A stretch of DNA of 64,000 nt. Source: Sinomonas atrocyanea (GTDB taxonomy: Bacteria; Actinomycetota; Actinomycetes; Actinomycetales; Micrococcaceae). Numbering within the stretch: the first letter of the stretch is position 1; the number at the start of each line of letters is the position of its first letter. The position numbers and the translations under genes are program-made. Of the stretch, positions 5,376 through 52,116 are shown piece after piece. Where the stretch lies: the NCBI RefSeq assembly GCF_030811715.1, contig NZ_JAUSRH010000004.1:1-64000 (forward strand). Direction: 5' to 3'. Below the pieces are notes generated by a model, which saw only the letters and a program-made list of their open reading frames with translations, ran no database searches and was not told where the DNA came from.

Positions 5376-6977
5376 CTACAAGGAGGGCTGGCCGCCCAGG
5401 GCCGCCAGGAGCGCGGTGCCGTTCGGGGAGCCCAGCCCAGTGCACGGGTCCCACCCCGGGCCCGCGTGATAGGTGCCGTTGCTGCCCGAGGTGATGTCCC
5501 GGAAGGCCCCTGCCTGCGCGTACAGGGCGGGCTGGAGCAGCCCGAAGCGCCGCCCCGTCGCCTGGGCCAGCCGGGCGACGAGGGCTGCCCAGAGCGGGGC
5601 CACGGCGCTGGTCCCGCCGATCACCATGTCGGTCCCGTCCACGCGGACCCGGTAGCCGGTCTGCGGGTCGGCCACCGCGCTCACGTCGGGGACGCCCCGC
5701 CCGTGCTTGGCGGGATGCGGGGCGGGCTTCGGCCTGCGGTGGGCGGCGGGAGCCGACGAGTTCTGCCACGCCGGGGCCGGGAACACGTCGCTGTACCCGC
5801 CGCCGGTCGCGGACGTGGTGGGCGAGTCGTTCCAGACGGTCTCGGACGTGATGGTCCCGGACGCGGCGTCGGCGACCAGGCGGGTGCCGCCGCATGCGAG
5901 GGCATGGGGGCTCGAGGCGGGGAAGTCTGCGTGGTCCTTGCCGTCGCCCACCCCGTCGGTGCTGCCGCGATCGCCGGCCGCCGCGGTGACGGTGACGCCG
6001 AGGGCGGCCGCGTCGGCGAGCGCCTGGTCCATGGCGTTGCGGGCCTGGGCGGTCCAGGCGTCCTCGCTCTGGCCCCAGCTGATGCTCACGGCGCACGGGG
6101 CGGGGGTGGCGTGCGAGGCCCGCACGAGCGCATCGAGGAAGCCGGCGTCCGTGTTCGGCCCGAAGTAGACCACGATCGTGGACCCCGGGGCGAGGGCGCC
6201 CACCACCTCCACGTCCAGCAGCACCTCCCCGTCTGCGCCCTGGGGGTCCTGGCCGGGCTGGTTCTCGGCGCCGTCCACCCCGACGGCGGTGACGGTGGGC
6301 GTGGCGAGGCCGAGGCCCCCGAAGTAGGCGTCCAGGTCGGCCTGCCCGAAGCCGCCGCCGAGCTCGAGGATCGCCACCGTCTGGCCCGCACCGTCGGTCC
6401 CGGCGGGAAAGCCGTAGATCCGGCCTAGGTCAGGGGGGCTGTAGCTCGTGCCGGCCGCCGCGCGCGGGATGGCCCGGAACTGGGCCCTCGCCTGGGGGCG
6501 GTCGTCGAGGCCCAGGACCGCCGTGACCACGCCGTCCAGCGAGGCTGGGATCCGCAGGGACCCGGTGCGATGCCGGTGTGCGACGGACTGACCGTGGGGG
6601 CCGGAGCTCGTGACCCTCTCGAGGCTTGTGCCGAAGATCCGGCAGAGCTGCTCGACCGTGCCGGCCAGGCGGATCCTGCGGGAGGCGGGGTCGGCTTCCA
6701 CGACCTCGGCCCCGAGCCGGGTGAACGTCTCCGTGGCAAGCCTGAGGTCCTCGTCGGAGGCGCCGTGACGGGCGGCGAGCTCCTGTGGCGAGAGCGGGGC
6801 CTCGCCGGGCTCCGCTGGAAGCGGGGCCTTGCGGCGCAGCACCACGGTGATCTGGATGCGCTCGGCGGGGTCGGCCGCCTGGCGCGCCGCAAGGCCGGGG
6901 GCGGGGGCGCGCTCCGAGCCCTCGAGAATGACGCTGGGCTCCTCGGCAGAGGGCTCGGAGGTGGGCTGGTCGGTCAT
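5376..6977 (-). CDS. S53-family (sedolisin/kumamolisin-like) serine-carboxyl protease
   Basis: The 533-residue proenzyme has an N-terminal activation domain (about residues 40-180, with HGASDEDL and RIFGTSLERV typical of Pro-kumamolisin) and a subtilisin-like catalytic domain. The Glu-xxx-Asp pair of the catalytic triad is in GEVLLDVEVV near residue 250. The serine is in GGTSAVAPLWA near residue 455. The C-terminal calcium site is in the DITSG...GPGWDPCTGLGSPNG segment. No signal peptide or membrane anchor is visible, as in kumamolisin. The protease should self-process in acid and cut peptides. It is convergent to the preceding gene and probably monocistronic. Confidence 0.9.
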   Translation of the reverse strand: MTDQPTSEPSAEEPSVILEGSERAPAPGLAARQAADPAERIQITVVLRRKAPLPAEPGEAPLSPQELAARHGASDEDLRLATETFTRLGAEVVEADPASRRIRLAGTVEQLCRIFGTSLERVTSSGPHGQSVAHRHRTGSLRIPASLDGVVTAVLGLDDRPQARAQFRAIPRAAAGTSYSPPDLGRIYGFPAGTDGAGQTVAILELGGGFGQADLDAYFGGLGLATPTVTAVGVDGAENQPGQDPQGADGEVLLDVEVVGALAPGSTIVVYFGPNTDAGFLDALVRASHATPAPCAVSISWGQSEDAWTAQARNAMDQALADAAALGVTVTAAAGDRGSTDGVGDGKDHADFPASSPHALACGGTRLVADAASGTITSETVWNDSPTTSATGGGYSDVFPAPAWQNSSAPAAHRRPKPAPHPAKHGRGVPDVSAVADPQTGYRVRVDGTDMVIGGTSAVAPLWAALVARLAQATGRRFGLLQPALYAQAGAFRDITSGSNGTYHAGPGWDPCTGLGSPNGTALLAALGGQPSL

Positions 6978-7145
6978 GGCGTTCTCCGTTCGTGGGCCCT
7001 GCCGGGCCCGTCGCTGCGGGAGGGTGCGGTCCGGTATCCGCGACGATACGACCCGCGCGGCCCGCGGGCCATGCCCGGCACCGGCGATTCGTCCGGATGA
7101 CGGGCGCGACTCGTCCGATTAGGTGCCCGATGCAACCATAGGGGG

Positions 7146-8147
7146 GTGACCCCCGCCGTATCCCAGCAGACAGCCCATGCCCCAGCGCCCTCGAAGGCCG
7201 ACCGCGACGCCAAGCTCGCCGTCACCGTCTTCCCCGTCCTCGTGCTCGCCGCAGGCCTCATCGGCTTCCTCGTCCCGGGCCCGATCAAGGCGGCCGCGCC
7301 GGCCGTGCCGTACCTCCTCGGCGTCATCATGTTCTGCATGGGGCTCACGCTCACCCCGCCGGACTTCGCCTCCGTGGCCAGGAGGCCGTGGGCGGTGGCC
7401 CTCGGGCTCGTGGCGCACTACGTGATCATGCCCGGGGCCGGCTGGGCCATCGCGACCGCCCTGCAGCTGCCGCCCGAGCTGGCCGTCGGCGTGATCCTCG
7501 TGGGCTGCGCGCCCTCGGGCACGGCGTCGAACGTCATGGCCTACCTCGCCAAGGGCGACGTCGCGCTGTCCGTCGCCGTCGCGACCGTCTCCACGCTCGT
7601 GGCGCCGCTCGTGACCCCGGCACTCACCCTCCTGCTCGCGGGCTCGTTCCTGCACGTCGACGCCGGGGGCATGATCCTGGACATCGTCAAGACCGTGCTG
7701 ATCCCCGTGGTCCTCGGCCTCGTGGTCCGCGTGTTCCTCAAGAAGGCCGTGGCGAAGGTCCTCCCGGCGCTGCCATGGATCTCGGCGGTCGTGATCGCCG
7801 CGATCGTGGCGATCGTGGGGGCCGGATCCGCGAGCAAGCTCGTGGCCGCGGGCGGGATCGTGCTGCTCGCGGTGGTGCTCCACAACGGCTTCGGACTGAG
7901 CCTCGGCTACCTCGCCGGCAAGGCCGGCCGCCTCGACCGCAGGGCCCGGCGCGCCCTCGCCTTCGAGGTCGGCATGCAGAACTCGGGGCTCGCCGCGACC
8001 CTTGCGGCCGCGCACTTCACGCCCCTCGCAGCGCTGCCCTCGGCGGTGTTCTCGGTGTGGCACAACATCTCCGGCGCGGTGGTGGCGGCGTGGCTCGCGC
8101 GCCGTCCGGTGCCGGAGGCCGAGCAGGTGGCGCACACCGGGCGCTAG
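7146..8147 (+). CDS. Bile acid:sodium symporter-family (BASS) transporter
   Basis: The 333-residue membrane protein has about ten hydrophobic helices and the BASS signatures MGLTLTPPDF, VGCAPSGTASNVMAYLAKGDVALSV (given here in part) and EVGMQNSGLA, which surround the crossover and sodium sites. Bacterial members move organic anions such as bile acids, pantoate or 2-keto acids with sodium. The substrate here is unknown. The predicted start is GTG at 7146, preceded by a G-rich stretch with no clear ribosome site, so the start is uncertain by a few codons. The Dps gene follows 70 bases downstream on the same strand with its own ribosome-binding site. Confidence 0.88.
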   Translation: MTPAVSQQTAHAPAPSKADRDAKLAVTVFPVLVLAAGLIGFLVPGPIKAAAPAVPYLLGVIMFCMGLTLTPPDFASVARRPWAVALGLVAHYVIMPGAGWAIATALQLPPELAVGVILVGCAPSGTASNVMAYLAKGDVALSVAVATVSTLVAPLVTPALTLLLAGSFLHVDAGGMILDIVKTVLIPVVLGLVVRVFLKKAVAKVLPALPWISAVVIAAIVAIVGAGSASKLVAAGGIVLLAVVLHNGFGLSLGYLAGKAGRLDRRARRALAFEVGMQNSGLAATLAAAHFTPLAALPSAVFSVWHNISGAVVAAWLARRPVPEAEQVAHTGR

Positions 8148-8217
8148 GGTTTTGCCCCGCCCCGGGCTGGGGTAAGAGGCCGGTATCCCGATTCGTTCCG
8201 ATGGAAAGGACCCGGCC

Positions 8218-8676
8218 ATGAAGGCTTCCGACCAGCTCGCCCACGGACTGCAGGCGATCCTCGTGGACCTGATCGAGCTGTCCCTCCAGGGCAAGCAGGC
8301 GCACTGGAACATCGTGGGACCGAACTTCCGCGACCTGCACCTGCAGCTCGACGAGGTCGTCGCGGCGGCGCGGCTCCACGCCGACGAGGTCGCCGAGCGC
8401 CTGCGCGCCCTCCACGCGGTTCCGGACGGCCGGACCGCCACCGTGGCCAAGACCACCTCGCTGTCCGAGCCCACCGAGGGCCTCGTGAGCACCTCGAGCA
8501 CGGTCGACGCCGTCGTGGCCGCCATCGACTCCGTCTGCGCCACCGTGCGCGGGGTGTACGACGCGGTGGAGAAGGACGACGCCGCCACCACCGATATCCT
8601 CAACCAGATCCTGCTCCAGCTGGAGAAGCTGTCGTGGATGGTCGGCGCGGAGAAGGCCAAGACGACCGCGCCGTAG
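8218..8676 (+). CDS. dps: Dps-family ferritin-like DNA-protection protein
   Basis: The 152-residue protein is a Dps-type mini-ferritin. It should form a dodecamer that oxidises and stores iron with hydrogen peroxide and shields DNA during stress. The ferroxidase-site signature LQGKQAHWNIVGPNFRDLH is near residue 20, followed by LDEVVAAARLHADEVAERL, which supplies acidic ligands from the neighbouring subunit. The length and four-helix pattern fit. AAAGGA precedes the ATG at normal distance. It is the second gene after the BASS transporter, but a link between them is not evident. Confidence 0.9.
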   Translation: MKASDQLAHGLQAILVDLIELSLQGKQAHWNIVGPNFRDLHLQLDEVVAAARLHADEVAERLRALHAVPDGRTATVAKTTSLSEPTEGLVSTSSTVDAVVAAIDSVCATVRGVYDAVEKDDAATTDILNQILLQLEKLSWMVGAEKAKTTAP

Positions 8677-40872: not shown

Positions 40873-40940
40873 CCCACCCCTGCCCCGGTCATATGCACGC
40901 TGTCACCGCCATCACGGTCCCCGGCATAGGATCAGTAGGT

Positions 40941-41750
40941 ATGGCTCCCAAAAATGAACCGGAATCAGAGACCGACCTCGAGGGCGGCCAGTCCGGCGGA
41001 GTGCAGTCCGTAGAGCGTGCGCTGACTGTCCTGGAGATCTTGGCGCGGGAGGGGCACGCGGGCGTCAGTGAGATCGCCGAGGAGATGGGGATCCACAAGT
41101 CCACCGTCTCTCGGCTGATGGGGTCGCTGGTAAGCCGCGAGATGGTCCACCAGAACAGCGATCGCGGCAAGTACCAGCTCGGGTTCGGGATCCTCCGCCT
41201 GGCCAGCTCCATTCCCGGGCGGCTGAGTCTGGTCCACGAGGCACGGCCTGTGCTGGAGAGCCTCGCCGAAGAATTCAAGGAAACGGTCAACCTCGCCGTC
41301 CTGCGGTCCAACTACGCCGTCAATGTGGACCAAGCCATGGGCCCCTCCACACTGGCAACGTATGACTGGGTGGGAAGCCTGACGCCGCTGCACGCCACCT
41401 CCAGCGGGAAGGTGCTCCTGGCTGCCTTGGGTGCTGATGAACGGGACCGCATCCTGAAAGAGGCCGGACTGAAAGCCCGCACGGCCAAGACCATCACCAG
41501 CCGGAAAGAACTGGATGAGCAGCTGCTCGAGGTGGGCGCCAAGGGGTACGCGGTCGTGCGGGAGGAGTTCGAGATCGGCCTGAATGCAGTGGCGGTGCCC
41601 GTCTACAACCACCAGGGCGAAGTAACGGGCGCCATCAGTATCTCGGGGCCAGCGTTCCGGTTCGACCCCGAGAAGATCCCCGGCCTGCTGGAGACGCTCA
41701 AGGAAGCCGGACTCAAGGTCAGCGCCAACATGGGCTACACGCGGCGCTAG
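40941..41750 (+). CDS. IclR-family regulator, candidate controller of the betaine island
   Basis: The 269-residue protein has an N-terminal winged helix (about residues 20-85: ERALTVLEILA, GVSEIAEEMGIHKSTVSRLM) and an IclR effector-binding domain (about 90-265: TPLHATSSGKVLLA, GYAVVREEFEIGLNAVAVPV). IclR proteins sense small catabolites. TAGGAT lies 14-9 bases before the ATG at 40941, so the leader is very short. It is oriented towards the glycine-betaine genes and is the natural candidate to control them, probably through the two-part motif at 42205-42229 and 50305-50329. The gene is visibly less GC-rich than trpF upstream. Confidence 0.88.
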   Translation: MAPKNEPESETDLEGGQSGGVQSVERALTVLEILAREGHAGVSEIAEEMGIHKSTVSRLMGSLVSREMVHQNSDRGKYQLGFGILRLASSIPGRLSLVHEARPVLESLAEEFKETVNLAVLRSNYAVNVDQAMGPSTLATYDWVGSLTPLHATSSGKVLLAALGADERDRILKEAGLKARTAKTITSRKELDEQLLEVGAKGYAVVREEFEIGLNAVAVPVYNHQGEVTGAISISGPAFRFDPEKIPGLLETLKEAGLKVSANMGYTRR

Positions 41751-42410: not shown

Positions 42411-43715
42411 ATGACTGCTCCAGTGAACGCGCCCCTCAATTCACGCGGAAGACTCGCTTCGACCTTGCCTGCGGAGAAGCTGGCGGAAATCGCTGCGCTG
42501 TTTGAGTTCCGGCGTAAGGGATATTCACTCGATGCCCCCTTCTACACCGACCCAACGCTCTTCAAGCTCGACATGGAGGCCGTCTTCGGCCAGCACTGGA
42601 TCTTTGCCGGCAGCGTTGCCGAGCTGCCGGAGCCGGGCGACTACATCACGGTGGACTACGGCCCCTACTCCCTGATCGTGCTGCGCACCGACGAGGGCGA
42701 CGTCAATGTCCTGCACAACGTGTGCCGCCATCGCGGTGCACGCGTCCTGACCGAGGCCGCCGGGTCCACCGGAAACCTGGTCTGTGGCTACCATTCCTGG
42801 ACCTACTCTCCCGAGGGCAACCTGATCCACGCCTCCGCCCCCGGCGAGGCAAAGTTCGACAAGAACTGCTTTGCCCTCAAGCGTGCCCACAGCCGCGAGG
42901 TCGCCGGGCTCATCTTTGTCTGCATCGCGGACGAGCCGCCCGCGGACTTCGATGAGACTGCCAAGATCTTCGAGCCGTACCTCGCACCCCACGACCTGTC
43001 CAAGACGAAGATCGCCTACCAGCAGAACATCATCGAAGAGGGCAACTGGAAGCTCGTCATGGAGAACAACCGTGAGTGCTACCACTGCGACGGGCACCCA
43101 GAACTCGCCTGCTCGCTCTTCCCCACCTGGGGCCTGACCGAGGGCCTTATCCCTGCCCACCTCGAGGAAGTGTGGGACCGCAACAAGCAGGCCCAGTCAT
43201 CGCTCGAGGAGCGGTGCCGCCGCTACGGCCTGCCCTACAGGGTGGTCGAGGAGCTCGACACCCGCATAGCCGGAATCCGCATCTCACGCGAATCCCTGGA
43301 CGGCGAGGGCGAGTCGTTCTCGGCCGATGGGCGCCGGCTCTCCAAGAAGCTGCTCGGCGACCTGCCGGACTTCCGTCTGGGCCGCTGCTCGATGCACCTG
43401 CAGCCCAACAGCTGGTTCCACTTCCTCGGCGACCACGTCATCACGTTCGGCGTCTTCCCCATCAACGAGCACCAGTCCCTGGTCCGCACCACCTGGCTGG
43501 TGGCCGACGACGCCGAGGAGGGCGTTGACTACGACCTCGACAAGCTCACCTACACCTGGAAGCAGACCAACCTGCAGGACAAGGCGTTCGTGGAGCTGTG
43601 CCAGCAGGGTGCCAGCAGCCCCGCGTACGAGCCCGGCCCCTACATGAAGAGCGAATACCAGGTCGAGGCATTCATCAACTGGTACGTCCAGCGCGTGCAG
43701 GAGCACTTGGCATGA
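42411..43715 (+). CDS. gbcA: Glycine betaine monooxygenase, Rieske oxygenase subunit
   Basis: The 434-residue alpha subunit of a Rieske oxygenase demethylates glycine betaine to dimethylglycine and formaldehyde with oxygen. The Rieske cluster ligands are Cys105 and His107 in CRHRGA and Cys125 and His128 in CGYHSW. The mononuclear iron site is in NNRECYHCDGHPEL near residue 225. The identification as GbcA rests on its length, the overlap with a reductase gene (ATGA), and the dimethylglycine oxidase downstream. A related quaternary-ammonium oxygenase (for example for stachydrine or carnitine) is an alternative. GGAGGA precedes the ATG. Confidence 0.88.
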   Translation: MTAPVNAPLNSRGRLASTLPAEKLAEIAALFEFRRKGYSLDAPFYTDPTLFKLDMEAVFGQHWIFAGSVAELPEPGDYITVDYGPYSLIVLRTDEGDVNVLHNVCRHRGARVLTEAAGSTGNLVCGYHSWTYSPEGNLIHASAPGEAKFDKNCFALKRAHSREVAGLIFVCIADEPPADFDETAKIFEPYLAPHDLSKTKIAYQQNIIEEGNWKLVMENNRECYHCDGHPELACSLFPTWGLTEGLIPAHLEEVWDRNKQAQSSLEERCRRYGLPYRVVEELDTRIAGIRISRESLDGEGESFSADGRRLSKKLLGDLPDFRLGRCSMHLQPNSWFHFLGDHVITFGVFPINEHQSLVRTTWLVADDAEEGVDYDLDKLTYTWKQTNLQDKAFVELCQQGASSPAYEPGPYMKSEYQVEAFINWYVQRVQEHLA

Positions 43716-45118
43716 CGGACGTCCTCACTGAGACACCCATCCAGGAGCCACAGCGCATCCGCGGCCTGGAAATGCCGTGGAACAGGGTGATGGGCAGCAT
43801 CGAAGGACCTGCCAACGCTGCGCGTGCCCTCGGCCCGTGGCATCCGCAGGAGTTCATGGCCGAATGCGTGGAGACCGTTCCCGAGGCAGGCGGCATCATG
43901 ACCTTCGTGTTCCGCCGCCGCGACGGTGCGCCTCTGGCGTTCCGTGCGGGCCAGTACGTAAACGTCGCGTTTCCCGTCAACGGCGAGGACCAGGATCCAG
44001 TAGACCGCAGCTACTCGCTGTCCAGTTCGCCCACCCAGCCGTGGACCTTCAGCATCAGCGTAAAACGGGACAACACGGGACTTGTTTCACCGTGGGTGCA
44101 TGAGAACGTCAGGCCCGGCACCGTCCTGGACATGCTCGGACCGGTCGGGGCGTTCCATCTGCCGGACGCCGATCGGCGTGCACGGTACCTGTTCCTGGCC
44201 GCCGGCGCGGGCATCACCCCCATCATGTCCATGGTGCGGACCATCCACTCCCTGCCGGGCCATGCCGATGTTGTGGTGCTCTACCACGGCGCGGAAGCCG
44301 GCGGCTTTGCCTTCCACCAGGAACTGGCCTACATCGCATCCGTGGACTCGCGCGTCAAGGTCTTCTACTCCCTAGGCGACCGCAGCAAGCCCGACGAGTG
44401 GGAAGGGCTCAGCGGAAGGCTGACGGCCGCCATGATCGATCAGGTTGCTCCGGATGCAAACGGCCGCCAAGTGTATGCCTGCGGCCCGGAGGGTTACCTG
44501 AACAGCGCCACCGAACTCCTCAAGAAGGTGGGCGTCGACGACACCTCCATCTACATGGAGTTCTTCTCGGGTGATCGCCAGACCATCCTCGAGTACCAGG
44601 CTGAACTCGCCCTCGCGGCGGACATCGCAGAGGAGATCGCAGGGGAAATCGCCACTTCCGCTGAGGACTACTACGAAAGCCAGCCAAGCCCGTTCGGGCT
44701 CTATGAGCCCGGTTACGACGAGGACGGAACCCTGCAGGCCGCGGGGCTGCCGCTCGAAACCGCCAACCCGGACGCGCCAGCCCCCGAAGGAAGTTCGCAC
44801 GCGGAGCCCGAGGCGGGAACCCCCGATGCCTCGAGCTTCGACACGGTCGGAACGGGAAGCCTCACCCTCTCCTTCATGCGCACTGGCATCAAGGTGCGGA
44901 TCGATCCCGACCAGCACATCCTCGAGGTGGCGCAGCGGGCGGGCGTCAGGATCGGCGCCAACTGCAAGGAGGGCATGTGCGGCTCCTGCAAGGTCGTCAA
45001 GCTTTCCGGGGAGGTCGAGATGAACCACCAAGGCGGGATCCGCAAACGGGAGATCGACGCCGGCAAATTCCTTCCCTGCTGTTCCACAGCGCGCACCGAC
45101 TTGGCCATCGACGCCTAG
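43712..45118 (+). CDS. gbcB: Glycine betaine monooxygenase, reductase subunit
   Basis: The 468-residue reductase transfers electrons from NAD(P)H to the Rieske subunit. It has an FAD-binding ferredoxin-reductase domain (RSYSLSSSP, the flavin motif, near residue 100), an NAD-binding domain (LFLAAGAGITPIMSM and CGPEGYLNSATELL), and a C-terminal plant-type [2Fe-2S] domain with Cys residues in GANCKEGMCGSCKVV and PCCS. The stretch between the reductase and ferredoxin parts (about 310-385) is acidic and longer than usual. It overlaps gbcA by ATGA. Confidence 0.88.
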   Translation: MTDVLTETPIQEPQRIRGLEMPWNRVMGSIEGPANAARALGPWHPQEFMAECVETVPEAGGIMTFVFRRRDGAPLAFRAGQYVNVAFPVNGEDQDPVDRSYSLSSSPTQPWTFSISVKRDNTGLVSPWVHENVRPGTVLDMLGPVGAFHLPDADRRARYLFLAAGAGITPIMSMVRTIHSLPGHADVVVLYHGAEAGGFAFHQELAYIASVDSRVKVFYSLGDRSKPDEWEGLSGRLTAAMIDQVAPDANGRQVYACGPEGYLNSATELLKKVGVDDTSIYMEFFSGDRQTILEYQAELALAADIAEEIAGEIATSAEDYYESQPSPFGLYEPGYDEDGTLQAAGLPLETANPDAPAPEGSSHAEPEAGTPDASSFDTVGTGSLTLSFMRTGIKVRIDPDQHILEVAQRAGVRIGANCKEGMCGSCKVVKLSGEVEMNHQGGIRKREIDAGKFLPCCSTARTDLAIDA

Positions 45119-45246: not shown

Positions 45247-46152
45247 ATGCCCCTCATGGAACCAGCACCTGCCACGGCTGTCCGGCCGGAGCTCAAGGAC
45301 GAGCACGCCCAGAAGTTCGTGCTGACGTTGTCCTGCCGGGAGCAGGCCGGAATCGTGCAGGCAGTGACCACGTTCCTCTTCGAGCGCGGCTTCAACATCG
45401 ACGAGCACCAGCAGTTCGACGACAGCCTGCGCGAGACGCTGCACCTGCGCACCGCATTCTCCGGGTCCCCCAGCTACACCCCCGCCATGCTCGAAGAAGA
45501 GTTCGGCGGCATCGCGCAGCGGTTCGACATGAAGTTCAGCTTCCACGACCAGACCCAGCAGCGTGTCCTGGTCATGGTCTCCAAGTTCGGCCACTGCCTC
45601 AACGACCTCATCTTCCGCTGGCGCGGCGGCAGTCTGGGCGGTGAGCTGGTCCTGGTGGTTTCCAACCACGAGACCCACCGTGCCATGGCCGAGGCCGCGG
45701 GCCTGCCCTTCATCCACATCCCAGTCACCCCGGACACCAAGGCTGACGCCGAACGCCGCCTTCTGGAGCTCGTGGATGAATACGACGTCGATCTGGTGGT
45801 CCTTGCCCGATACATGCAGGTGCTCTCAAACGATCTCTGCCGTTCCCTGGAAGGCCGTGCGATCAACATCCACCACTCCTTCCTCCCCGGCTTCAAGGGT
45901 GCCAAGCCCTACCACCAGGCCCACGCACGCGGCGTGAAGCTCATCGGTGCCACCGCGCACTACGTCACCGCCGACCTGGACGAGGGCCCGATCATCGAGC
46001 AGGAAGTCATCCGGGTAGATCACAGCTACGGCCCCTCCGCCCTGTCCACCGTCGGCCAGGACGCCGAGGCACTCGCCCTGTCCCGGGCCGTCCGCTGGCA
46101 CTGCCAGCACCGCGTGCTGCTGGACGAGACCAGCACCGTGGTGTTCCGGTAA
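45247..46152 (+). CDS. purU: Formyltetrahydrofolate deformylase
   Basis: The 301-residue enzyme hydrolyses 10-formyl-tetrahydrofolate to formate and tetrahydrofolate. It has an N-terminal ACT-like domain (FVLTLSCREQAGIVQAV) and a C-terminal formyltransferase-like domain. The active-site Asn-His-Asp set is in NIHHSFLPGF and GATAHYVTADLDEGPII. In this operon it would recycle the folate loaded by the dimethylglycine oxidase. AAGGAGG lies upstream of the ATG. A start three codons later (MEPAP) is possible. Confidence 0.93.
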   Translation: MPLMEPAPATAVRPELKDEHAQKFVLTLSCREQAGIVQAVTTFLFERGFNIDEHQQFDDSLRETLHLRTAFSGSPSYTPAMLEEEFGGIAQRFDMKFSFHDQTQQRVLVMVSKFGHCLNDLIFRWRGGSLGGELVLVVSNHETHRAMAEAAGLPFIHIPVTPDTKADAERRLLELVDEYDVDLVVLARYMQVLSNDLCRSLEGRAINIHHSFLPGFKGAKPYHQAHARGVKLIGATAHYVTADLDEGPIIEQEVIRVDHSYGPSALSTVGQDAEALALSRAVRWHCQHRVLLDETSTVVFR

Positions 46153-46177: not shown

Positions 46178-48694
<2,517 letters not shown>

Positions 48695-48696
48695 GC

Positions 48697-49368
48697 ATGA
48701 CGGAACAGCACTCGAACAGAGCGGCACCGTCCGGCGCCGGGTCGGTCGGCACCGAGACCCTCGGCAGCTACCTCGCACGGCTCGCCTCCCGGCAACCCAC
48801 GCCGGGAGGCGGGGCGGCAGCCGCACTCCATGCCGCACAGGGGGCGGCACTAGTGGCCATGGTGGCCCGCTACACCACCGGCCCCAAGTACGAAGAGCAT
48901 GCAGGACTGGTGGAGCGGACCACGAAGGTGGCCGATGAGCTCGCATCGGAGGCACTGCGCCTGGCGGAGTCCGATGAACGGGTCTTCCAGGCGGTGATCG
49001 ACGCGTACCGGCTTCCCTCTGACACCGAGGGGCTCAGGGCTGCCAAGACGTCAGCCATCCAGGCGGCGCTGGTGCAGGCCGCACAGACCCCCGCACAGCT
49101 GATCAAGCTGGCCGGTGAGGTGGTGGACCTCGCAGCCGGACTGGCCGACGTCGCCAACCCGAACGTCATCAGCGACGTGGCGGCAGCAGCAGATGCGGCA
49201 CGTGCCGCCGCCACCACGGCACGGGTCAACATCGACATCAACGTCGTGGCCATCAAGGACCAGTCGGCGCGGTCGCTGCTCAAGGAGCAGACTGCCGGCA
49301 TCGAGGAAAAGGTCGTGGCGGCGGCGGACGCCCTCGTGGGGCGGGTACGGGAAAGGATCCTGCAGTGA
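48697..49368 (+). CDS. fchA: Cyclodeaminase/cyclohydrolase-family methenyl-THF cyclohydrolase
   Basis: The 223-residue protein belongs to the formiminotransferase-cyclodeaminase C-terminal family, whose free-standing members (FchA) hydrolyse methenyl-THF to 10-formyl-THF. It shows PTPGGGAAAALHAAQGAALV at the N-terminus and VNIDINVVAIKD near the C-terminus. It starts three bases after the dmg stop. Its own stop overlaps the folD start (GTGA at 49365-49368). This pairing is notable because the FolD here lacks the Lys needed for the same reaction. Confidence 0.85.
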   Translation: MTEQHSNRAAPSGAGSVGTETLGSYLARLASRQPTPGGGAAAALHAAQGAALVAMVARYTTGPKYEEHAGLVERTTKVADELASEALRLAESDERVFQAVIDAYRLPSDTEGLRAAKTSAIQAALVQAAQTPAQLIKLAGEVVDLAAGLADVANPNVISDVAAAADAARAAATTARVNIDINVVAIKDQSARSLLKEQTAGIEEKVVAAADALVGRVRERILQ

Positions 49369-50279
49369 GCGCCCAGACGCTCTCTGGAAAGGAGCTGGCC
49401 GGAGACATCCGGCGCCGCGCGCGGGAACAGGGCCGGGACCTCGAGCAGGACAGCATTCGCCCTGTCCTAGCCGTGGTCATCGCCACCGACGACGGCTCGA
49501 CCCACTGGTACGTCCGTTCCATCGAGCGCGCCGCAGAGTCGGCCGGGATCGGCTGCCGCGTCATCGATCTCGGCCACGATGCAACGGAGCAGGACCTGGC
49601 CGGCGTCCTGCGCGACCTGGCCACCGAATCGTCGGTGCACGGCATCATCCTGCAGACGCCGCTTCCGGCCGGCGTCCGCACCGATGCCTTGGTGGGGCTG
49701 ATTCCGCCGGAGAAGGACATCGACGGGGCGAACCCGCTGAGCCTTGGCCGCCTCGCCGTGGGGCAACCCGCCTTCGCGCCTGCCACGGCCCGGTCCGTCG
49801 TCGAGATCCTTGAACACCACCGCATCCCGGTGGCCGGGCGCCGCGCTGTGGTTGTAGGCCGCTCGGCAGTGGTGGGAAAGCCGCTGGCCCTCCTGCTCCT
49901 GGAACGCGACGCTGCCGTCACGGTGTGCCATTCACGGTCCGGGCCGCTGGAGAACCACACGGCTGGGGCGGACATCGTGGTGGTCGCGGCGGGAAGGACC
50001 GGCCTGCTCAACGGCAGCCACGTCTCTTCCTCTTCCGTAGTCATCGATGTGGGCACCAACGTCCTGGCCGACGGGTCGCTGGCGGGGGACGTGGACGCGG
50101 ACAGCGTCCGAGGGGTTGCAGCTGCGCTCAGCCCTGTTCCGGGTGGCGTCGGCTCCGTGACGACGGCGTTGCTGCTGCTCCACACCGTGGAGGCCGCTCG
50201 GCGCCAATCGTCCGGCATGCCTCGGGACCAGCAGCAAGGAACGCCTACACACTCTGTCTTGCACAGGCGACGCCCTTGA
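49365..50279 (+). CDS. folD: FolD-family methylene-THF dehydrogenase lacking the cyclohydrolase lysine
   Basis: The 304-residue protein aligns with bifunctional FolD: Q-T-P-L-P in place of QLPLP, the KDIDG motif with its Asp, VVVGRSAVVGKPLALLLL for the nucleotide, and PGGVGSVTTALLLLHTV. In the WYVRSIERAAESAG segment, Ile53 stands where E. coli FolD has Lys54 and the human enzyme Lys56. That residue is needed for cyclohydrolase activity but not for dehydrogenase activity. So this protein is probably a dehydrogenase only, with FchA supplying the second step. The start is GTG, coupled to fchA. The last ~25 residues are an unusual extension. Confidence 0.88.
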   Translation: MSAQTLSGKELAGDIRRRAREQGRDLEQDSIRPVLAVVIATDDGSTHWYVRSIERAAESAGIGCRVIDLGHDATEQDLAGVLRDLATESSVHGIILQTPLPAGVRTDALVGLIPPEKDIDGANPLSLGRLAVGQPAFAPATARSVVEILEHHRIPVAGRRAVVVGRSAVVGKPLALLLLERDAAVTVCHSRSGPLENHTAGADIVVVAAGRTGLLNGSHVSSSSVVIDVGTNVLADGSLAGDVDADSVRGVAAALSPVPGGVGSVTTALLLLHTVEAARRQSSGMPRDQQQGTPTHSVLHRRRP

Positions 50280-50703
50280 CTTTGAGTGTGACCTAGCGCA
50301 CGATCTGTTGCACAGAGCGAACGTTGTTGATCATCACGGAACGAAGCCGACCCGGTTGTTTCCCCCTCGGGACTCCACCCGTGATGCGCTGAGAAACAGC
50401 TAAACGAATTCAGGATGGCCGATCACAGGGGAGCCCTGTCTCGCGCATCGGCCGCACAACGTTGGGAACTGTTGATGACTATCAAAGGTGGCAGCACCAT
50501 CGATCAAAGCAGTGCGGTGCGCCGGAACCTGGGAACGACGCCGAAGTCGTCTCCCGAGTCCTGCGCGGCCATATCGGCTGGCATCGAGCCAGTCGGGCTC
50601 GTCGACCGGTCGCCCAGGGCTGCTGCGGCTCTCCAAGCACCTAGGAAACGGCGCTCGGGTGCCGGCAGCGGTTTGCGCTGAAACCAGAAGGGAACGAATC
50701 TCA
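50280..50703. other. Leader region before the MFS gene, no supported gene
   Basis: The 424-base stretch carries the two-part motif shared with gbcA at 50305-50329. An 88-codon ORF at 50415-50681 overlaps the transporter leader but has no family or ribosome site, so I do not call it. No known riboswitch could be recognised by eye. Confidence 0.5.
50305..50329 (+). promoter_or_regulatory. Two-part motif upstream of the transporter (shared with gbcA)
   Basis: CTGTTGCACA (50305-50314), seven variable bases, then CGTTGTTG (50322-50329), identical in both parts and in spacing to 42205-42229. Here TGATCATCA follows. Confidence 0.65.
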
Positions 50704-52116
50704 GTGATCCATTCGATCAGGACGACGGCCCCCGCCGACGCCTCCATCTCAAAAGAGACCAGCTCCACGTTCAAACGCCGCTTCATGATACGGCTTGTCG
50801 CTGTCTTCATCGGCGGGATGTTCCTCGACGGTTACATCCTCGGAATCATCGGCCCCGTCACCGGACCCATGCGGGCGGATCTCCAGCTCAACGAACTATC
50901 GCTGGGCATGATCGCTGCAGGCCCGCTGGCTGGGATCTTCGTCGGCTCCCCGCTGGCCGGCTGGGCTACTGACAAGTTCGGACGCAAGCCCATGTTCCTC
51001 GTGGACATGGGCCTGTTCCTGCTCGCCTCAGCGGCCCAGTTCTTCGTAACCTCCGGAGACGGAGCCGTGATCCAGCTGGCCGTCATCCGGTTCTTCATGG
51101 GCGTCGCGATCGGCGGCGAATACTCAATCGGCGGGCCACTGCTGTCAGAGTTCTCCCCTCCGAAGCTCCGCGGACGATTGCTCGGGCTGACCCTCATCGC
51201 CTGGTACGTCGGTTTCATGATGGCATTCATCATCGGCACGCTCCTGCACGACGCCGGCACCCCATGGCGCCTCGTGATCGGCACGAGCACGATACTCGCA
51301 TTCGTCCTGTTCCTCGCCCGCTTGGGCCTCCCCGAATCGCCGAGCTGGCTCATCACGAAGGGACGGCGCGAGGAAGCACTGGCGATCGCACGCAGATACG
51401 TTGAATCGCCCCAGATGCACAAGAGCATCACCGAAGAGATCGATCTGAGGAAGATCCAGGAGGCCCAAGCCGCGCGGAGCAGGACCAAGGTCAAGGGCGC
51501 CTCCGTCGGAATGCTGTTCTCGAGACAGTACTGGCGCACCACGCTCTTCACCTCAGGTTTCTGGTTCTGCGCGGTCACCCCGTACTTCGCGATCGCGACT
51601 TTCGCCGACGACGTGCTCAACCATTTCGGCTTCGGCGGCGGCTGGGCCGGTGGAGTGGGCCTGTCCGCACTTGCGACCGCGGGCGTTGTCACCACCGTGC
51701 TTCTGATTGACAAGCTCGGCCGCCGAATCCTCACCGTGCCCGGGCAGTGGCTCTGCGCAGGCATCCTGCTCGTTATCGGACTCTGGGCGAACGCACCTGC
51801 GATCCTCGTGCTCGTCCTGTTTCTCGCCTTCTCCTACTTCAACGCCGGCTACACCACGCTGACGCAGGTCTACCCGGCAGAGGTATTCCCCGGTCACCTG
51901 CGCGGCATCGGCATGGGCTTCGCCGCAGCCTTCAGCCGCATCGGAGCCGCACTCGGCACGTTCGCGTTGCCATGGGCGATCAGCAACATCGGCATGGGCC
52001 CAAGCATGGTTGCAGCCGCCGCCGTCGCATTACTCGGCGCAGTCCTCTCGCAATGGCTCGCGCCTGAAACGAAGGGGCGCACCCTCGCCGAGATCTCAGC
52101 AGACTTCTCCCACTGA
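50704..52116 (+). CDS. MFS transporter, probable substrate uptake for the betaine island
   Basis: The 470-residue protein has twelve predicted helices and MFS landmarks. These are GWATDKFGRKPMF in the 2-3 loop, GGEYSIGGPLLSEFSPPKLRGR in helix 4 (in parts) and RLGLPESPSWLITKGR before the central loop. It resembles metabolite:H+ symporters rather than sugar porters or drug pumps. The start is taken as GTG at 50704 with AAGGGA upstream. The shared motif with gbcA suggests uptake of betaine, dimethylglycine or choline, but the substrate is not proven. A terminator with a short T run follows. Confidence 0.85.
   Translation: MIHSIRTTAPADASISKETSSTFKRRFMIRLVAVFIGGMFLDGYILGIIGPVTGPMRADLQLNELSLGMIAAGPLAGIFVGSPLAGWATDKFGRKPMFLVDMGLFLLASAAQFFVTSGDGAVIQLAVIRFFMGVAIGGEYSIGGPLLSEFSPPKLRGRLLGLTLIAWYVGFMMAFIIGTLLHDAGTPWRLVIGTSTILAFVLFLARLGLPESPSWLITKGRREEALAIARRYVESPQMHKSITEEIDLRKIQEAQAARSRTKVKGASVGMLFSRQYWRTTLFTSGFWFCAVTPYFAIATFADDVLNHFGFGGGWAGGVGLSALATAGVVTTVLLIDKLGRRILTVPGQWLCAGILLVIGLWANAPAILVLVLFLAFSYFNAGYTTLTQVYPAEVFPGHLRGIGMGFAAAFSRIGAALGTFALPWAISNIGMGPSMVAAAAVALLGAVLSQWLAPETKGRTLAEISADFSH

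Follow-up and report, generated by a model that had tools for sequence, protein, structure and literature searches.

The window analysed here, a stretch of 64,000 nucleotides of Sinomonas atrocyanea DNA, carries on its + strand, in this order, genes for an IclR-type regulator, GbcA, GbcB, PurU, dimethylglycine oxidase (DMGO), FchA, a FolD-family protein that we call FolD2, and an MFS transporter. The features are the following.

40893..41750, + strand: IclR-type regulator, upstream of the cluster (IclR-family models, all scores below their cut-offs)
42411..43715, + strand: GbcA-type glycine betaine monooxygenase, oxygenase subunit (NF058607, 385.6 bits, below the cut-off of 670)
43712..45118, + strand: GbcB-type reductase subunit (NF058606, 237 bits, below the cut-off of 500)
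45247..46152, + strand: purU, formyl-THF deformylase (TIGR00655, 320 bits, over the cut-off of 286; the start codon is our own reading)
46202..48694, + strand: dimethylglycine oxidase, DMGO (matches 1pj5, N,N-dimethylglycine oxidase, over the full length with 1701 bits)
48697..49368, + strand: fchA-type gene, 223 aa (PF04961), predicted methenyl-THF cyclohydrolase
49365..50279, + strand: folD2, 304 aa, GTG start (PF00763 and PF02882), predicted dehydrogenase-only FolD
49365..49368, + strand: GTGA overlap of the FolD2 start codon and the FchA stop codon
49521..49523, + strand: codon of Ile53 of FolD2, the residue found where E. coli FolD has the catalytic Lys, K54
50659..52116, + strand: MFS transporter after folD2 (PF00083, E 2.1e-62; start uncertain)

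The fchA gene begins 2 bases past the end of the DMGO gene, and it has the letters GTGA in common with folD2, since the FchA stop codon TGA lies at 49366-49368 and the FolD2 start codon GTG begins at 49365. ORF coordinates and the PF04961 match thus bear out an earlier note on this DNA, which had read an FchA-type gene directly before folD with a GTGA overlap. The same note placed the pair inside a betaine operon; betaine-type neighbours (GbcA, GbcB, PurU and DMGO) are indeed present, while a single transcript is what we infer from spacing and strand. DMGO is the predicted source of 5,10-methylene-THF and PurU the predicted consumer of 10-formyl-THF. The 1PJ7 DMGO originates from Arthrobacter globiformis, according to a passage of PMC3534580, and A. 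globiformis NBRC 12137 (L056) carries the same PurU-DMGO-FchA-FolD2 block as the window. In the clusters of some relatives, a second DMGO-like gene (L077:9671-12238, 1290 bits) lies past the MFS gene.

FolD2 belongs to the FolD family by both of its domains (PF00763, 91 bits, E 8.2e-26; PF02882, 188 bits, E 8e-56; both above the curated cut-offs). The catalytic Lys of the YxxxK motif, which marks a bifunctional FolD, is absent from it, with Ile53 standing instead. Ile53 falls under this Lys in all five of the PDB alignments listed, from 27 chains matched, and is aligned to E. coli K54 in MAFFT alignments. The earlier note had set Ile53 opposite E. coli Lys54 and had named a misalignment, with the Lys elsewhere, as grounds for refutation. 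Its reading proves correct, and a misalignment is ruled out by the five listed PDB alignments and by the Lys count: FolD2 has only three Lys residues (9, 117 and 172, at GK, EKD and GKP), all at usual FolD positions, so that no displaced Lys stands in.

Lysine state and fchA adjacency in Actinomycetota

A scan of genome contigs with FchA yielded 65 loci, 61 of them from Arthrobacter/Pseudarthrobacter/Paenarthrobacter and 4 from Jiangella. A folD2 match follows the fchA match on the same strand in all 65, and 58 of them show the gene order PurU-DMGO-FchA-FolD2. Ile occupies the site in the window as well as in every one of these loci (66 Ile in the alignment), the two gap rows being the C-terminal halves of the broken folD frames of L052 and L061. 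Of the 63 related loci in which both ORFs are present, 62 have an in-frame overlap of the 4 bases NTGA, the exception being L061, with its broken folD frame; the fchA of L065 is cut by a contig end. The broken folD2 frames of L052 and L061 may represent either real decay or sequencing error. Such conservation is above chance, and the Ile is fixed rather than a product of random decay. Ten comparisons with the window's gene give FolD2 a dN/dS of 0.12-0.16, a rough value, given that nine of them have a dS close to 0.9 or higher; FolD2 is under purifying selection. A private mutation or a pseudogene is ruled out by the conserved Ile together with these ratios. A plasmid search with FchA gave 4 records at E 1e-5.

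The survey of the class comprised 394 genomes, in which 68 matches to FolD2 exceeded 200 bits; all 68 were fetched. Among the 102 FolD rows of this set, 50 lie beside fchA and have Ile (48) or Leu (2) at the site, four of the 50 being repeats (L089/L077, L090/L076, L092/L156 and L093/L157). Another 24 FolDs belong to the window clade and lack a same-strand neighbouring fchA; they have Ile (14) or Leu (10) and never Lys, and 21 of the 24 genomes gave no PF04961 match at all. The FchA-free Lys-less genes are L125-L127, L129, L131, L139 and L141-L155 (genus codes g153 and g127). The comparison proposed in the earlier note, of FolDs next to fchA with stand-alone copies from the same genome, was run: all 28 stand-alone copies fetched keep the Lys. 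Twenty-three of them share a genome with a Lys-less window-clade FolD, which lies beside fchA in 9 cases, while the other 14 genomes are without any FchA. The window's genome is among the 23. Its only other FolD (contig C2 of G000) keeps the Lys, is 35% identical to FolD2 (100/283) and passes an NCBIfam bifunctional cut-off (465 vs 401); FolD2 itself passes no NCBIfam model among the 25 listed of 30, with a best score of 268 bits vs a cut-off of 421.

In the survey of the phylum, PF04961 was found in 133 of 396 Actinomycetota genomes (131 over the cut-off), and Lys was absent from all 28 FolDs neighbouring the best 30 PF04961 loci. In an enlarged Actinomycetota set of 279 FolD rows, Lys is present in 0 of the 170 rows beside fchA (Ile 110, Val 30, Ala 26, Leu 3, Thr 1) and in 78 of the 109 not beside it (the rest being Ile 14, Leu 13 and Val 4). 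By our own reading, the fchA-adjacent pairs span 21 family codes. Seven loci were dropped before this count (L001, L002, L088-L090, L092 and L093), and six organisms are still double in it (L027/L077, L053/L076, L062/L108, L063/L116, L064/L115 and L066/L111). Twelve loci have no FolD row, owing to a broken frame (L052, L061), contig ends (L186, L205), a fragment (L209) or an FchA with no FolD in the stretch (L080-L082, L085-L087 and L297). Of the 109 non-adjacent rows, 20 (L158-L177) come from stretches of 1.2-1.4 kb, in which only the neighbour's edge is visible; 14 of their genomes are without PF04961 anywhere, as is G313. L122 was counted as non-adjacent, with an fchA ~1 kb off on the other strand. 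The Val and Ala types have also lost Gln98, unlike the window's FolD2, and in Ala-type rows a Lys frequently follows one or two positions later, like E. coli 56, with no alignment gap needed.

Does the mere presence of FchA account for the pattern? From the 133 genomes with PF04961, 75 were picked by hand, and 63 of these have a single FolD (one, G862, has no usable FolD). Without exception, the single FolD is either Lys-less and beside fchA (42 genomes) or Lys-bearing and not beside it (21 genomes). Because these 21 keep the Lys with a PF04961 protein elsewhere in the genome, adjacency and not mere presence matters, and FchA anywhere in the genome is ruled out as a predictor. Codes f66 and f98 contribute seven non-adjacent Lys-less FolDs, which belong to six genomes with PF04961 elsewhere and another, Lys-bearing FolD. 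Of the 42 Lys-less single-FolD genomes, 41 have formate-THF ligase, as does the window's genome. The remaining one of the 42, G905 (93% complete), whose sole FolD has Ile and overlaps fchA, gave no formate-THF ligase match, so its 10-formyl-THF should come by way of the FolD/FchA pair.

These rows are related by descent, and we therefore claim no significance for the raw counts. The best tree comprises 89 rows, E. coli and 88 out of 274, and was built after the columns near K54 and Q98 had been taken out; on it, loss of the Lys takes 2 changes and adjacency takes 6, while a single clade of all 54 Lys-less rows is not rejected (AU p 0.232). With about two Lys losses, and one origin not rejected, the adjacency counts are not independent. 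Five independent pairs differ in adjacency, too few for a test: the Lys agrees in 2, opposes in 0 and shows no difference in 3. One might thus suppose that Lys loss and fchA adjacency are linked by shared descent alone, the Lys having been lost for some other reason. Such a scenario would fit the small number of losses set against six changes of adjacency, the three pairs without a Lys difference and the 21 FchA-free genomes with a Lys-less relative of FolD2. However, both pairs that are informative for the Lys agree, and Lys-less pairs occur in different pathways, Wood-Ljungdahl-type as well as betaine. Moreover, an MTD1-type enzyme also adjoins FchA. We consider shared descent alone an unlikely explanation, albeit the strongest of the alternatives to a functional split.

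The Wood-Ljungdahl-type and MTD1-type cases are as follows. In L310 (G691, code f73), a Lys-less FolD/FchA pair is accompanied by formate-THF ligase, a RACo-type protein, a CO dehydrogenase/acetyl-CoA synthase delta-subunit domain and a prismane/CO dehydrogenase domain, a set that points to a Wood-Ljungdahl-type cluster. Its FolD has Val at the Lys site and has lost Gln98, as opposed to the Ile and the retained Gln of the window. In L084, a gene directly after fchA (7698-8612, + strand) scores 194.5 bits against yeast MTD1 (1edz) vs 66.9 for the next chain, and a gene of L083 (about 6420-7023, - strand), also after fchA, matches it at 365 bits. Both MTD1-like genes overlap fchA or nearly so, and they come from different family codes. 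In some other genomes, e.g., L298, L299, L301, L303 and L307, no DMGO or PurU was found near the pair, and Pfam naming of these pairs' neighbours gave no common theme among those named.

The Ile53 site and the predicted capacity of FolD2

With the Lys lost and Tyr49, Gln97 and Asp120 (E. coli Y50, Q98 and D121) kept along with the GRS and HSR motifs, FolD2 has the features of a monofunctional FolD-type dehydrogenase. We take GRS and HSR to have an NADP-binding role, and by these motifs its cofactor is probably NADP+.

The retained Gln97, Tyr49 and Asp120, which set FolD2 apart from the Val and Ala types, might also suggest that the protein is still bifunctional by means of a different residue or a remodelled active site, FchA merely boosting the cyclohydrolase step. 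Against such a possibility, Ile cannot act as an acid or a base, and the three Lys residues all occupy other conserved FolD sites. Furthermore, a passage of PMC5688156 describes the E. coli FolD K54N variant as having undetectable cyclohydrolase activity and ~19% of the dehydrogenase activity. Continued bifunctionality thus appears to us quite improbable.

The same variant qualifies what the earlier note had said of this Lys, namely that cyclohydrolase activity requires it and dehydrogenase activity does not. The first half stands; the second is too absolute in view of the residual ~19%, and also because the Lys has a part in both reactions, Lys56 supporting hydride abstraction, as stated in part of PMC3368264. 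Since the Lys also aids hydride transfer, FolD2 could be a poor or altered enzyme, either regulatory or acting on another substrate. The change of Tyr50 in some FchA-less relatives (Phe in L125, L126 and L129; lost in L147) would agree with this. Nevertheless, FolD2 is under purifying selection with its substrate and NADP motifs kept, its position after DMGO is fixed in 58 of 65 loci, and a Lys-less FolD is the sole FolD found in 42 genomes; we therefore give very little credence to a poor or altered enzyme.

FchA and the predicted route from betaine methyls to formate

The FchA of the window matches PF04961 with 170 bits (E 5.3e-50, cut-off 24.5) and falls short of the NCBIfam FchA equivalog model (144 bits vs a cut-off of 275). 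The residues conserved across 169 FolD-adjacent FchA rows are all present in it. Its nearest solved chain is 7vg4, a methenyltetrahydrofolate cyclohydrolase, which is presumably from the Methylobacterium group. A formimino-THF cyclodeaminase in place of a cyclohydrolase, as the score below the FchA cut-off and the matches to the cyclodeaminase-named chains 1o5h and 1tt9 might hint, is very improbable given the better match to 7vg4 (E 1.6e-27 vs 3.3e-18 for 1o5h) and neighbours predicted to make methylene-THF and to consume 10-formyl-THF. Cyclohydrolase is accordingly the function that these matches and neighbours suggest for FchA. A second, weak PF04961 protein is encoded in the window's genome (L086:6862-7530, contig C1 of G000; 58.9 bits to the FchA model), with no FolD within 14 kb around it.

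A division of the two steps between separate proteins has several precedents. In Methylobacterium, MtdA and Fch are a separate dehydrogenase and cyclohydrolase, MtdA not being classed as a FolD. The MTD1 enzyme of yeast acts as a dehydrogenase and is not known to have cyclohydrolase activity; the PDB title of 1edz names a dehydrogenase only. Like FolD2, it has the FolD fold and lacks the Lys, with Thr at the site in our alignment, but it is remote from FolD2 (25.6 bits). The FolD of Clostridium perfringens is reportedly dehydrogenase-only, with the cyclohydrolase step supplied by FchA (Aluri et al. 2016), and both proteins are said to be needed to replace E. coli FolD. The window pair resembles this case in combining a FolD-family dehydrogenase that would lack cyclohydrolase activity with FchA. 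Whereas C. perfringens is an anaerobe with formate assimilation, the window pair belongs to a catabolic cluster for betaine, alongside DMGO and PurU. With that split FolD and FchA on record, the window pair would be a catabolic variant and not a new principle.

The acetogen cluster runs in the reductive direction. In acetogens such as Acetobacterium, the cluster has the form fhs-fchA-folD, according to a passage of PMC6925170. There, too, fchA adjoins folD, and in the actinobacterial counterpart, L310, the FolD is Lys-less.

Taken together, these data lead us to propose the following scenario. By their family assignments, DMGO would pass a betaine-derived methyl to THF, giving 5,10-methylene-THF, and PurU would finally free formate and regenerate THF. 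Between them, FolD2 would oxidise 5,10-methylene-THF to 5,10-methenyl-THF, without the Lys needed for the next step, and FchA would hydrolyse methenyl-THF to 10-formyl-THF; for these middle two steps the residue and the comparative pattern speak. The cluster would thus be a full one-carbon disposal line for betaine methyls, in which two single-step enzymes replace a bifunctional FolD. From the directly observed gene order, overlap, residue change, conservation and association with fchA, we infer the activities, the direction of flux and the cofactor. Other routes count against the split: formate-THF ligase, which also supplies 10-formyl-THF, is present in 41 of the 42 Lys-less single-FolD genomes and in the window's genome, and the conversion of methenyl-THF can also be spontaneous, as a passage of PMC5688156 notes. 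Even so, we think it very probable that FolD2 is a dehydrogenase only and FchA the cyclohydrolase, with PurU acting on their product, the pair being a split one in betaine one-carbon disposal. The central proposal of the earlier note, that the two steps are divided between two proteins, finds comparative support in the contrast of 0/170 adjacent with 78/109 non-adjacent Lys-bearing rows and is very probably right. The overlap of the genes suggests matched amounts of both enzymes, and a FolD2/FchA complex or channel is possible.

Among the literature matches listed, no paper ties this Lys loss to fchA adjacency or the pair to a betaine cluster. What the window adds is the betaine setting, the fixed Ile and a genome in which the Lys-less FolD can be set against a Lys-bearing one; the surveys add a near-rule in Actinomycetota. 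On balance, it seems probable to us that this near-rule is general: any Actinomycetota FolD-type dehydrogenase beside fchA would have lost the Lys. This would hold for two or more FolD clades and for the MTD1 type, in acetogen-type as well as betaine clusters. Adjacency would then predict a dehydrogenase-only FolD, many annotations as "bifunctional" would be wrong, and the 21 FchA-free genomes may also hold a dehydrogenase-only FolD.

Overall, adjacency to fchA would provide a simple genomic rule separating dehydrogenase-only from bifunctional FolDs and would correct routine annotation. The proposed split appears both in a catabolic cluster for betaine and in one of acetogen type, which raises the question of why two steps of one active site should be separated at all, be it for flux, for hand-over to PurU or for control of methenyl-THF. 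The reason may lie in a high flux, or in a cyclohydrolase step that is controlled on its own.
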